The translations under genes were made by a program, and so were the position numbers. Of a DNA stretch of 35,178 nucleotides, positions 2,839-34,976 are shown one piece after another. The notes under the pieces are model-generated. The model was not told the DNA's origin. It made no database searches and saw only the letters and a list, made by a program, of their open reading frames with translations. The stretch lies in the NCBI GenBank assembly GCA_030613055.1, contig JAUWMR010000047.1:1-35178 (forward strand), in the 5' to 3' direction. This stretch comes from Desulfobacteraceae bacterium. GTDB lineage: Bacteria; Desulfobacterota; DSM-4660; Desulfatiglandales; Desulfatiglandaceae. Numbering within the stretch: position 1 is the stretch's first letter; each line of letters opens with the position of its first letter.

Positions 2839-3069
2839 ATGGAAACAGCAAAATTATTTCAGAATGGCAGTTCTCAAGCCGTAAGGCTACCCAAGGCATT
2901 CAGAATTCCTGGGAACGAGGTGAAAATATTCAAAAATGGGAACCAGGTTATACTGGAACCGATAGTAACTACATGGGACTCCTTGTTCGAGTCTCTCAGT
3001 GAATTTCCAGAAGACTTTATGGAAGATGGACGTAATCAGCCTCCCATGCAGAAGAGGGAGTTTTTCTGA
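2839..3069 (+). CDS. vapB: VapB-type antitoxin (AbrB/SpoVT fold)
   Basis: A 76-residue protein. The N-terminal half is a swapped-hairpin AbrB-like DNA-binding domain: AKLFQNGSSQAVRLPKAFR, then EVKIFKNGNQVILEP (to about residue 46), typical of the VapB group whose partners are PIN toxins. The C-terminal tail (residues 47-76, acidic and aromatic) is where such antitoxins wrap the toxin. The stop TGA at 3067-3069 overlaps the toxin ATG at 3069, so the two genes are translationally coupled. A promoter with an inverted repeat lies just upstream. Confidence 0.88.
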   Translation: METAKLFQNGSSQAVRLPKAFRIPGNEVKIFKNGNQVILEPIVTTWDSLFESLSEFPEDFMEDGRNQPPMQKREFF

Positions 3070-3470
3070 TGCACTATCTGCTTGATACCAATATTTGCAT
3101 ATACCTTATTAAGAAGCGTCCACCAAAGGTTCTTGAGCGTTTTAGGGAACATTCACCCCAAGATGTCGCCATCTCCACAATTACGCTTTTCGAACTTAAA
3201 TATGGGGTGGAAAAGAGCCAATACCGACAACGTTCCGAAGATGCCCTTGCCAAATTTCTTCTGCCATTGAACCTTATTGACCTGGATCGTTCCGCTGCCA
3301 TGGAAGCTGCAACGATTCGTGCGCAACTTGAAAAGACAGGGATGCCAATCGATCCTTATGATCTGCTCATAGCAGGCCTGGCCCTATCACGGGACATGAC
3401 ATTGGTCACCAATAATTCCAAGGAATTTGAAAAAATTCATCATCTGCGTCTGGAAAATTGGGTTAAATGA
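3069..3470 (+). CDS. vapC: VapC-type PIN-domain RNase toxin
   Basis: A 133-residue PIN-domain protein of full family length. The acidic metal-binding residues expected for a PIN RNase are visible: D6 in LLDTN, E42 in LFELKYG, and D98 in the segment IDPYDLLIAGLA, followed by the C-terminal TLVTNNSKEF block. VapC toxins cleave structured RNA, often initiator tRNA or 23S rRNA loops; the target here is unknown. It overlaps vapB by one base (TGATG). Both genes look intact, so this is probably a working pair. Confidence 0.9.
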   Translation: MHYLLDTNICIYLIKKRPPKVLERFREHSPQDVAISTITLFELKYGVEKSQYRQRSEDALAKFLLPLNLIDLDRSAAMEAATIRAQLEKTGMPIDPYDLLIAGLALSRDMTLVTNNSKEFEKIHHLRLENWVK

Positions 3471-5440: not shown

Positions 5441-5483
5441 TTAGACAGGATAACCCCGCGTTCCGCGGGGTTATCCTGTCTAA
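5441..5483. repeat. Perfect 20-bp hairpin with CAGGATAA arms
   Basis: Arms 5441-5460 and 5464-5483 are exact inverted copies around the loop TTC, with A/T runs outside both ends. The hairpin looks like a bidirectional terminator, but both neighbouring genes are transcribed away from it, so no gene ends here. Its right arm (CGCGGGGTTATCCTGTCTAA) recurs exactly at 34942-34961, showing that it belongs to a dispersed repeat. Confidence 0.8.
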
Positions 5484-7485: not shown

Positions 7486-7686
7486 GACGCAGATTTTCGC
7501 AGATAAACGCGGATTCTTTTTTTTAATACTATATACTATAGATCTGTATTCATCTGCGTCCTAATAACTATTTTCTGGAGTTATCAAATGCCTTACGCCT
7601 GACTTCCGGTTTAGGACCAAAATTATTACTTTTTCAGTTAGTTCTATATGTTTAAAATCCTGATAATCTGTATTCATCTGCGTCCC
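7486..7686. repeat. CGCAGAT-family short-unit repeats between hemB and ahbD
   Basis: Three pieces of one dispersed family: 7486-7516 (GCAGAT units with a 10-base period), and two inverted copies ending in ATTCATCTGCGTC at 7541-7560 and 7665-7686. They fill most of the gap between ahbD and hemB. A related piece is at about 366-380. No gene is visible among them. Confidence 0.75.
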
Positions 7687-8992: not shown

Positions 8993-9220
8993 ATGATCAA
9001 AGTTTCCGCAACGAAATTCAGGAATAATATTTTCAAGTATCTTGACAAAATTGAAGAAGGCGAAACAATCGTCATTGAACGAAATAATCAGGAAGTAGCC
9101 CGTTTGATCGCAGACAATAAAACAGAATGGCGCGACCAAATGAAGGTTCAGCCGGAACTGCTTGTTTCTCCAGAAAAAATTATTGAACCGCTGGATGATA
9201 TTTGGGAGGAGTACACTTGA
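8993..9220 (+). CDS. Phd/YefM-family antitoxin
   Basis: A 75-residue protein. The N-terminal domain (MIKVSATKFRNNIFKYLDKI, then GETIVIERNNQEVARLIA) is the Phd/YefM DNA-binding fold. The C-terminal tail (residues 50-75, with EPLDDIWEEYT) would bind a toxin. GGGAGG precedes the ATG at an ideal distance. Its stop is followed two bases later by the ATG of a PIN-domain gene that is now cut short. The pair lies on the plus strand between hemB and ahbC, both on the minus strand, so it looks inserted into a heme gene cluster. Confidence 0.85.
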   Translation: MIKVSATKFRNNIFKYLDKIEEGETIVIERNNQEVARLIADNKTEWRDQMKVQPELLVSPEKIIEPLDDIWEEYT

Positions 9221-9222
9221 AG

Positions 9223-9393
9223 ATGACGCGCTATCTTCTGGACACCCATGCCCTGATTTTCTGGAGCGCAAAGGAATGGGTATCAGATGAATTCATTTCG
9301 CTGCTTGACAGGCAGGCAAAACAGGGCAATGTATTGGTTTCCTCCATAAGCTTTTGGGAAACCGCTTTGGATTTAAAAAACCAACTTCATTAA
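9223..9393 (+). pseudogene. Truncated PIN-domain toxin
   Basis: 56 codons of a VapC-like protein, against about 130 in intact relatives. The first PIN motif (RYLLDTHALIFW, with the catalytic Asp) and the second acidic motif (SSISFWETAL) are present. The third and fourth acidic blocks are missing. The stop TAA at 9391-9393 lies inside the 36-base repeat that adjoins ahbC, so truncation coincides with that repeat. The upstream frame could also start at 9202, but the ATG at 9223 right after the antitoxin fits the family. Loss of half the active site should make it inactive. Confidence 0.85.
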
Positions 9394-12517: not shown

Positions 12518-13151
12518 TCCTTTGTATTTGCAAAATAAAAAAAGCCGTAATAGTTCACCTATTAAAAGGCCTTTAGACGGGGTTACAGGATAAACAAGAT
12601 TTTATTTCCTGTACATCCTTAAATAAATCCTGTGTTACCAAAATATTAACTTTTCCCTGAACAGTCATGTCTATAGTTGACTAAACCCTGGCGTCGCAAA
12701 CCTGCACCTGCCAAAACCGCTACACTCGGAGCGTAACACGCCATCTGTTGCAGTGCTCGCTCCGGCAGGGATCTCTGGTAGAAAATTTTACTAAAACAGG
12801 ATAACTGTTTTGATTTACAAGATTAAAACAATCCAGTCCATCTTGTCAATCCTGTCAAAAGAATAGACGGCTGAACTATTGCAATTAAGCTTTATTGGCA
12901 AATTGTCGATCACCATCAGTTAATTTGAAATATATTCATTAACTTCAGGGATTTCAACCCCTATGTTTAAACCTTAAAATATTGACTCAATACCGCAATT
13001 CAATTAACTTATCATACGCAGTGCCTTCAGGCCATAAAGAACTTAGTCCGCTTCTCTCATCCCCGCTCTGTGAGCGGGAACAATAATGGAATAATGTTAG
13101 AGGCTTAAGGTTAGAGGCGGGAGGTTAGAGGCGGGCGGCAGGGGAAATCAC
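12518..13151. other. Intergenic region with dispersed repeat fragments
   Basis: No gene is visible. About 12585-12640 and 12790-12860 hold degenerate CAGGAT/ATCCTG units in both orientations. 13062-13078 forms a CCCGCTC/GAGCGGG hairpin. 13098-13141 is an AGAGGC-type array with a 14-base period that ends just before the purL ribosome binding site. A TTGACT at 12982 has no convincing -10 partner. Confidence 0.65.
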
Positions 13152-18282: not shown

Positions 18283-18636
18283 TGCCTCATTCCTGTGCTA
18301 CGAACCTTTATGTTTTTCTAAGAGACTTTTTTGACAGGATTAACAGGATATTCAGGATATGAATTATTAAAACACATCCTGTTAATCCACATTTAAATCC
18401 TTTACTTTTCGTTTGATTTCAACCTTTCGTTCACTAAAATTAATAATTAAACCAACAGATTTTTTTAATAATCTTCTTAGTCAATTCCTTGTATTTCATT
18501 TATACACTTTCTTCAGCTTGTGATTCTTTTTTGATTTACCGGATAGCTAATGGGAGACTTAACCTTGTTTGTTCCGTTAAAACAGAATCTTGTATATCCT
18601 GTTATCCTGTCAGGTCTTTTTCAAATGACTAAACTG
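18283..18636. other. Gap occupied by a repeat element
   Basis: The 354-base space between manA and the phosphomannomutase gene is almost wholly the mobile element at 18333-18611, described in its own entry. Nothing else is visible. Confidence 0.8.
18333..18611 (-). mobile_element. MITE-like element with internally deleted GxxExxY gene, copy 1
   Basis: A 279-base element. Its ends are near-perfect inverted repeats: GACAGGATTAACAGGATA at the left, and the inverse of GACAGGATAACAGGATA at the right. On the minus strand an ATG opens MKYKELTKKII, and after an A7 run another frame encodes VGLIINFSERKVEIKRK, then VKDLNVD and a stop (18382-18384). From memory these match the first and last segments of GxxExxY-family proteins (PD-(D/E)XK-like, about 125 residues); the middle of about 85 residues is absent. 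A copy with the same junction is at 24606-24885. Confidence 0.75.
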
Positions 18637-23543: not shown

Positions 23544-23630
23544 GACGGGATGAACAGGATAAACACGATATTCTTTTATCCTGTTGATCTCTTAGTTCAG
23601 ATCCTTGATCTTACGCTTAATTTCAACTTT
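23544..23630 (-). mobile_element. Remnant of the GxxExxY-derived element, copy 3
   Basis: It begins with GACGGGATGAACAGGATAAA, like one end of the 280-base elements. On the minus strand 23592-23630 encodes KVEIKRKIKDLN and a stop, the same C-terminal end as in copies 1 and 2. The rest of the element is missing; a CTAAAGTG array takes over at the right. Confidence 0.7.
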
Positions 23631-24558: not shown

Positions 24559-24884
24559 TTTTCATCTCCAAAAACCATTTTCCTACAAGTTCAACTTCTT
24601 TTTTTGACAGGATTTACAGGATATTCAGGATTAAAAGCATAAAATTCATCATGTTAATCCTCCCTGAAATCTTTTACTTTACGTTTGATTTCTACTTTTC
24701 GTTCACCAAAATTAATAATTAAACCAACAGGTTTTTTTAATGATTTTCTCAGTCAATTCTTTGTATTTCATTTTTTGTAAATTTTCTTCAGGTTAGGATT
24801 CTTTTTGATTTACTGGATAGCTACAATAAAACTTAACTTTGTCGGTGAATTTAAAACAAAATCATGTCTATCCTGTTATCCTGT
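24559..24884. other. Gap occupied by a repeat element
   Basis: The space between the kinase stop and the diguanylate cyclase start is nearly all the mobile element at 24606-24885. No gene, terminator or promoter could be recognised apart from it. Confidence 0.8.
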
Positions 24885-24885
24885 C
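24606..24885 (-). mobile_element. MITE-like element with internally deleted GxxExxY gene, copy 2
   Basis: 280 bases, alignable end to end with 18333-18611. Left end GACAGGATTTACAGGATA and right end TATCCTGTTATCCTGTC are inverted. On the minus strand an ATG opens MKYKELTEKII, and after an A7 run the next frame gives PVGLIINFGERKVEIKRK, then VKDFRED and a stop. The junction is at the same place as in copy 1. The last base overlaps the stop codon of the hybrid kinase gene. Confidence 0.75.
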
Positions 24886-28529: not shown

Positions 28530-28607
28530 CAATCATCAATCCGAACAATCATCAATCCTTCTTCGCCTATGAACCCCATTCTTCGTGCCCTTCGTGTTCT
28601 TCGTGGT
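28530..28607. repeat. CAATCAT and CTTCGTG short-unit repeats
   Basis: 28530-28560 has CAATCATCAATCC twice. 28581-28607 has CTTCGTG three times with a 9-base period. Both lie in the gap between the Hpt gene and the kinase. Confidence 0.75.
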
Positions 28608-34573: not shown

Positions 34574-34976
34574 TTTAGTTTTTTGAAAAAATCGATCACA
34601 AATTATGAGGCCATGGGGATCCCTTTTTTTAGACAGGATAACAGGATAAACAGGAATCTATATTTTAAGTCACAAACAAGCCCTTATTGTAATAATCCTG
34701 TAAATCAAATAAAATATCCTGGCAATATACCTTACAGACAAACTCCGAATAAGGAATTTAATATAATCTCTTTGCGCCTTTCTTAAATATGAAATGAATA
34801 TTTAAAATAACTTCCGATCAATGGGGGAGAGCGGGTTAAACCCAAGCAATTACACATAAAGCAAGGAACTGTCTATCAGGATTTCTTAAGGATTTACAGG
34901 AATTCAAAAAAATCAAGTTAATCCTTGCCTGCCCCGCGGAACGCGGGGTTATCCTGTCTAATAAAGAACTGTGTAG
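34574..34976. other. Intergenic region with CAGGAT-family repeats
   Basis: No gene is visible in 403 bases. 34630-34655 has GACAGGATAACAGGATAAACAGG (9-base units). 34690-34725 has inverse ATCCTG pieces. 34872-34961 has a second set that includes a CCCCGCG/CGCGGGG hairpin (34932-34948) whose right arm repeats that of 5441-5483. The A/T-rich part between shows nothing. Confidence 0.7.

Follow-up and report, generated by a model that had tools for sequence, protein, structure and literature searches.

Introduction

Insertion sequences and MITEs are recognized by their terminal inverted repeats, a single gene, internally deleted derivatives and empty sites. Among other described systems, REPINs and REP sequences are dispersed extragenic inverted repeats that are tied to one protein family, the RAYTs or TnpA-REP proteins (PMC3116915; PMC8266576). 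The Rpn proteins (YhgA-like, transposase_31, PF04754) are recombination-promoting nucleases (PMC5350276), for which a role in toxin–antitoxin defence has been reported as well (PMC10327210). In addition, the intervening sequences of 23S rRNA, which are ∼430 nt in length and carry an ORF for the four-helix-bundle protein S23p, are suspected of being former mobile elements (PMC4990558).

In this study, a 35 178-nucleotide stretch of a Desulfobacteraceae genome (the window) was analyzed together with GxxExxY genes from relatives of the source genome and from many phyla. An initial annotation of the window had described two short elements made from a gutted GxxExxY gene and had suggested that such genes travel as the cargo of, or as part of, a mobile unit with CAGGAT ends. 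The remnants in the window, the arms around full-length genes, the sites with and without elements and the encoded protein were examined, and the elements were compared with the known systems.

Gutted GxxExxY elements in the window

The remnants belong to the GxxExxY gene family (PF13366/TIGR04256, PDDEXK_3), the members of which are placed in the PD-(D/E)XK nuclease superfamily. Two copies with a head and a tail of the gene, and a third with a tail only, are located as follows.

18333–18611, minus strand: gutted CAGGAT-class GxxExxY element, copy 1, 82% identical end to end to copy 2; in the gap between phosphomannomutase-like and mannose-6-phosphate isomerase-like genes (names inferred from ORF translations)
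18333–18358, plus strand: copy 1 left arm, GACAGGATTAACAGGATATTCAGGAT, three CAGGAT units with 9-bp spacing
18587–18611, minus strand: copy 1 right arm, inverted GACAGGATAACAGGATATACAAGAT, three CAGGAT-like units with 8- and 9-bp spacing
18467–18499, minus strand: copy 1 gene head, MKYKELTKKII (CAGGAT-clade HMM, E = 0.37)
18382–18456, minus strand: copy 1 gene tail, VGLIINFSERKVEIKRKVKDLNVD and stop, in a different frame from the head (CAGGAT-clade HMM, E = 5e-8)
24606–24885, minus strand: gutted CAGGAT-class GxxExxY element, copy 2, flanked by genes for a response regulator and a hybrid histidine kinase
24606–24631, plus strand: copy 2 left arm, three CAGGAT-like units
24861–24885, minus strand: copy 2 right arm, three CAGGAT-like units
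24739–24771, minus strand: copy 2 gene head, MKYKELTEKII (CAGGAT-clade HMM, E = 0.075)
24654–24728, minus strand: copy 2 gene tail, VGLIINFGERKVEIKRKVKDFRED and stop (CAGGAT-clade HMM, E = 5.5e-9)
23544–23630, minus strand: tail-only third copy, with an arm at 23544–23569 and the tail KVEIKRKIKDLN at 23595–23630 (CAGGAT-clade HMM, E = 1.7, weak)

The description of copies 1 and 2 as 279/280-base elements with common terminal inverted repeats was borne out by their alignment, which runs end to end over 279 bases (E = 6e-73) and in which the similarity ends at GACAGGAT...ATCCTGTC, save for a common poly-T run ahead of the left end. With at most one mismatch, GACAGGAT occurs 76 times in the window compared with an expected 27, a count that was reached by no shuffle. 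The initial annotation had also linked the head MKYKELT[K/E]KII and tail VGLIINF[S/G]ERKVEIKRK to a likely GxxExxY gene, and an HMM built from the CAGGAT clade's intact GxxExxY proteins agrees: on the minus strand it matches the two tails (18385–18480 and 24657–24752) and, in the correct order relative to them, the heads, the scores of which are weak, as expected for segments of 12–14 residues. No match of the remnants to the PF13366 profile was found at E ≤ 0.001, for which they are too short. In both copies the head and tail lie in different frames and meet at a run of seven A bases, the A7 junction that had been annotated. The third copy, with its tail beside an arm, was found as described, and its score is insufficient on its own.

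Intact GxxExxY genes with inverted GACAGGAT arms are present at six loci in other genomes of the same phylum (L161, L162, L164, L165, L175 and L264). The proteins of this CAGGAT clade (G[FYS]GFLE[ST]VYEK...) are those that the window remnants resemble, and the remnants therefore derive from a real family of intact elements. Since they consist of the ends and the head and tail of such elements, with the gene not intact, the window copies correspond to the MITE-like derivatives that had been proposed. Two further elements lie elsewhere in the window.

7486–7686, minus strand: another gutted GxxExxY element, located between hemB and a gene for a radical-SAM protein, with arms of the CGCAGAT type
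7486–7514, plus strand: left arm of this element, GACGCAGATTTTCGCAGATAAACGCGGAT
7657–7686, minus strand: right arm, inverted GGGACGCAGATGAATACAGATTATCAGGAT
7625–7653, minus strand: gene head, KHIELTEKVI
7568–7624, minus strand: gene tail, NFGPKPEVRRKAFDNSRK and stop
12576–12856, no strand assigned: 281-bp CAGGAT-ended element, the interior of which matches neither copy 1 nor copy 2

The element at 7486–7686, which the initial annotation had overlooked, belongs to a different GxxExxY sub-branch from the CAGGAT copies. An intact orthologous GxxExxY element (L254) occupies the same hemB/radical-SAM junction in G019, a genome of a sister genus, and the window element differs from it by a single internal deletion of ∼305 bp at a short AAT repeat. 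The window element was thus gutted in place, which does not decide the origin of the two A7 copies. For the two A7 copies, the earlier proposal of a spread after the deletion is plausible: one junction at two sites fits it, with gene conversion as an alternative source of the common junction. However, other copies have different deletions, and the copy at 7.5 kb lost its middle where it stands. Related copies at G000:C84, G012:C430 and G019:C52 have ends of the same kind with different internal deletions, and the last of these, which occupies the site orthologous to that of window copy 1, has lost more of its interior.

Several other features were observed in the window. A perfect 37-bp palindrome at 5444–5480, GACAGGATAACCCCGCGTTCCGCGGGGTTATCCTGTC, is a pair of CAGGAT ends with almost no interior, and a further CAGGAT arm at 34632–34658 matches the right end of copies 1 and 2. 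A lone class-G arm (three CACGAAG units) lies at 28581–28605, just upstream of the hybrid histidine-kinase ORF, and no partner arm was found for it. Pairs of antitoxin-like and PIN-like ORFs, as judged by their translations, are located at 2839–3470 and 8993–9393, with a PF01850 match for the PIN at 3075–3437.

Inverted arms around full-length GxxExxY genes

GxxExxY genes are present in 28 of 41 relatives of the source genome as well as in many phyla. Among 161 full-length genes, 118 are flanked by inverted arms at a score of at least 30, again across many phyla (115 at the first count and 118 once a few more loci had been added). An earlier set of 104 full-length genes, taken from relatives and from the genome_contigs collection, contained 81 with inverted repeats at this score, compared with 13.5% for flanks exchanged among loci. 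None of 20 PIN-domain genes from the same genomes passed the arm test. Within 400 kb of the source genome, 73 small ORFs were examined and 3 passed, two of which match by position a GxxExxY gene (C19) and a four-helix-bundle gene (C84). Chance and base composition as the source of the arms are ruled out by the swapped flanks, the PIN genes and the other small ORFs. About one quarter of the full-length GxxExxY genes have no clear arms by the score method.

GxxExxY is normally the sole gene between the arms and the median element is ∼500 bp in length, which makes the term `cargo' in the initial annotation unlikely as worded, whereas the other half of that suggestion holds: the gene belongs to a mobile unit, which has inverted repeats at its two ends. 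Phages and plasmids were rejected as vehicles: one query found no match among 50 697 phage records and only two IMG/VR loci, and eight plasmid records, all typed as non-mobilizable, carry GxxExxY.

The source genome itself contains three PF13366 matches, none of which has CAGGAT ends and each of which has inverted arms of its own: CGCAGAG-type (L001), CACGAAA-type (L002) and ACACAGAT-type (L003, itself truncated). The initial annotation had named full-length genes without CAGGAT ends as evidence against its reading; such genes exist, and the reading is formally refuted if these ends are demanded of all GxxExxY genes. The presence of CAGGAT ends on every GxxExxY gene was rejected on the basis of the matches in the source genome and the other arms in the survey, and CAGGAT is the form that a general arm design takes in one clade. 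At several loci (L034, L050, L052, L055 and others), the reading frame of the gene continues without a stop through the upstream arm, which translates to NHETHENHEK, HEKHERHER or HHRGTEHTEK, so that automatic start calls may give GxxExxY proteins false N-termini.

Arm classes and the protein tree

An arm typically consists of three copies of a ∼7-bp unit, one per 8–10 bp, and the arms of a pair are inverted relative to each other. The unit is either C[AG]CN[GA]A followed by a last base or ACAGGAT. Classes were defined by the last base of the unit (G, T, C or A) and were labelled by pattern from the arms only; the spacing of the units is 8–9 bp in class G, ∼10 bp in class T (9 bp for CAGGAT), 10 bp in class C and 9 bp in class A. 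On the protein tree, the last base changes four times among 106 strict elements, compared with a mean of 26.7 and a minimum of 23 after shuffling, and four times among all 145 labelled elements, compared with 45.4 after shuffling. All four classes are present in the taxonomic family of the source genome; the host therefore does not set the arm class, and the host genome was rejected as its determinant. The arm class follows the protein tree rather than the host. Joint descent of linked parts alone could explain this covariation, and the conservation of the unit pattern across phyla speaks for function.

These data bear on the possibility that another host enzyme moves the arms and the gene in trans, with GxxExxY either carried along under selection or regulating the movement. 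Gutted and solo copies, in which no intact gene lies in cis, show that the ends can still move or be retained, as such an enzyme would allow; however, GxxExxY is the usual single occupant of the unit and the arm class tracks its clade in many phyla, so that the enzyme acting in trans would need to vary in step everywhere, and we consider this explanation improbable.

Empty sites and element borders

Two elements from different orders of the same phylum, L189 (in G094) and L263 (in G034), share 92.5% identity across 456 bp, in an alignment that stops within 0–3 bp of the outer arm edges in both. As in the window copies, the borders of the element are the borders of the arms. The empty site of L189 was resolved to the base by a paralogous copy of its flank in G094 (∼95–97% identical) and by a congener, both of which are without the element: the insertion has the 6-bp direct repeat ATTTTC on both sides and the empty site has no arm. 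This repeat was not seen at L263. In two congeners, L171 is missing from between its two flanking genes, and an empty site was also found for L182. L178, at the cusB–cusA junction, is absent in many members of a 76-genome family, with one alignment across the junction, and four of these relatives have solo arm pairs of ∼130 bp with no gene at this junction. For L254, the hemB junction reads through with no insert in the 16 genomes listed from the family of the source genome. At the cusB–cusA and macB junctions the exact insertion point is hidden by intergenic sequence that is too diverged. On these comparisons, the arm–gene–arm unit is almost certainly mobile.

Target-site duplications showed no excess at the arm borders across loci, and a wider search for direct repeats gave few extra cases, which were in part nested tandem copies; long direct repeats at L253 and L138 were rejected as target duplications because they are nested solo copies. 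Target-site duplication as a general feature was thus rejected, L189 being the one clear case at 6 bp. Some insertion-sequence families make no target-site duplication. In one gap of an ABC transporter operon (L298, L299, L302 and L171), one congener has a GxxExxY element and another has a solo element with a 7-bp period, which indicates that operon gaps are shared landing sites.

A homing-like process, in which GxxExxY would cleave a solo arm pair or a site free of the element, and the element would be copied in by recombinational repair instead of being moved by cut-and-join transposition, would make solo arm pairs targets as well as derivatives. The nuclease fold near those of Cas4 and Hjc, the lack of general target duplication, the gene-less arm pairs at the cusB–cusA junction where a relative has the full element, and the full elements that sit amid tandem solo copies are all in keeping with it. 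The armless empty site of L189 and the short direct repeat on both sides of its insert, the many relatives with an empty hemB junction and the coincidence of arm and element borders argue in the other direction, and we regard homing as possible but doubtful.

Genomic setting

Where the neighbours could be called, both genes are on the strand of the element in 42 cases and both are on the opposite strand in one; the neighbours of the three clearest gutted copies in the window are co-directional too. The simplest reading is that GxxExxY is read from host operon transcripts, and the bias suggests an importance of RNA or transcription beyond what a transposition model predicts in detail. This bias also favours a non-mobile regulatory or RNA cassette, in which the arms form a transcript stem (a terminator, an RNase III site or an autoregulatory operator) around the nuclease gene, in parallel to a proposal for the 23S rRNA intervening sequences. 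The inverted arms would pair in RNA, and the four-helix-bundle genes known from these intervening sequences (PMC4990558) are similarly laid out. However, empty sites, precise borders, inter-order spread and solo copies need movement of DNA, and the empty sites in particular make the cassette very unlikely as a full explanation, while leaving room for an additional role of the arms in RNA.

The GxxExxY protein

Intact relatives score 144 bits against TIGR04256 (cut-off 35) and 133–150 bits against PF13366 (cut-off 22). PF13366 is the sole family found in the scanned proteins, besides weak sub-threshold nuclease matches, and family searches of these proteins gave no DDE, HUH, serine or tyrosine transposase. 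Values of dN/dS between pairs are 0.05–0.23, a range that shows purifying selection on GxxExxY. The residues E, D, E-x-K and Q are invariant or nearly so in 60 sequences (D64, E74, K76 and Q88 being invariant or at least 90% conserved). The structure model (pLDDT 94.9) has an alpha-beta-beta-beta-alpha-beta core with D...E-x-K in the expected order, and a PD-(D/E)XK-type fold is confidently predicted from it; GxxExxY is presumably catalytic. The closest solved folds are Cas4 (4ic1, Z = 9.8) and, among a broad set at ∼7, Hjc (1gef, Z = 7.3), a likeness that may reflect a common fold only; the Z values below the top one are in the common range. A Foldseek search returned nothing under E = 0.001.

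Discussion

The observed arm design, its link to the protein clade, the mobility seen in empty sites and inter-order spread, and the selection on the protein are here brought together in a multi-step model, which we consider probable overall, of a minimal selfish element with a nuclease that recognizes its own arms. The element would comprise a left arm, the GxxExxY nuclease as its one gene and a right arm, in ∼430–725 bp. The PD-(D/E)XK nuclease, as a multimer, would bind the repeated units of both arms, bring the ends together and cut at the outer borders or close to them, with host repair finishing the insertion elsewhere by a chemistry that we infer. Insertion would be preferred in gaps between co-directional genes, the transcript of which would give expression of GxxExxY. 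The arm unit and the protein lineage would diversify jointly, and internal deletions would leave arms with a broken gene (gutted) or with no gene (solo). From the sequences compared, it is likely that GxxExxY itself mobilizes the element. A stronger proposition, towards which we lean only slightly, is that a stand-alone PD-(D/E)XK nuclease of ∼120 residues is the only mobility protein of a new superfamily of autonomous mobile elements in bacteria, the ends of which would be read by a protein–DNA code (three ∼7-bp units, with last base and spacing co-evolving with the clade).

If GxxExxY moves its own element, the latter would be among the smallest selfish elements known. We know of no PD-(D/E)XK nuclease that acts alone in transposition. 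A common protein family without an assigned role thereby gains a testable one, dispersed repeats such as CAGGAT, CGCAGAG and CACGAAA are explained as the arms of GxxExxY elements, and the clade-specific units provide natural variation for studying how a nuclease reads DNA. Searches of the open literature, which were not exhaustive, gave no prior description under TIGR04256, PDDEXK_3 or two arm sequences and only two passing mentions of GxxExxY; the arm–GxxExxY–arm unit is apparently a widespread and undescribed form of mobile DNA.

Comparison with known systems

In their layout, GxxExxY elements are small insertion elements that have non-autonomous derivatives; their enzyme and their ends, however, are new to us. 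They share with insertion sequences and MITEs the terminal inverted repeats, which mark the borders of the unit, the single gene, the internally deleted derivatives, and the occupied and empty sites. They differ from these in that family searches gave no known transposase class, in having no general target-site duplication, and in ends that are repeated units varying by clade. With REPINs and RAYTs they share short dispersed inverted repeats, a repeat sequence that goes with one protein family and non-autonomous copies. However, RAYT is an HUH tyrosine transposase, whereas GxxExxY is a PD-(D/E)XK nuclease inside the unit, and its arms are repeated ∼7-bp units with a PF13366 partner gene. The Rpn proteins are likewise a nuclease family that is abundant in bacteria and tied to DNA mobilization and horizontal transfer, but they belong to another Pfam family (PF04754 rather than PF13366), and to our knowledge no arm-bounded unit has been described for them. 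Cas4 and Hjc, the nearest solved folds to the GxxExxY model, are similar in structure, with no PDB sequence match at E ≤ 1.

The 23S rRNA intervening sequences resemble GxxExxY elements in having one small ORF within terminal inverted repeats; their protein is unrelated to GxxExxY, and the window copies lie between protein-coding genes and not inside a 23S rRNA gene. Among the four-helix-bundle genes of relatives (PF05635, 23S_rRNA_IVP; L190–L219), 12 of 21 have inverted arms at a score of at least 30, which are built of strict 7-bp-period units with autocorrelation at 7 and 14, and a four-helix-bundle gene with inverted arms also occurs in the source genome (C84, ∼42.7–43.0 kb). This suggests that the four-helix-bundle elements are a parallel family, which bears on the origin of the 23S intervening sequences.
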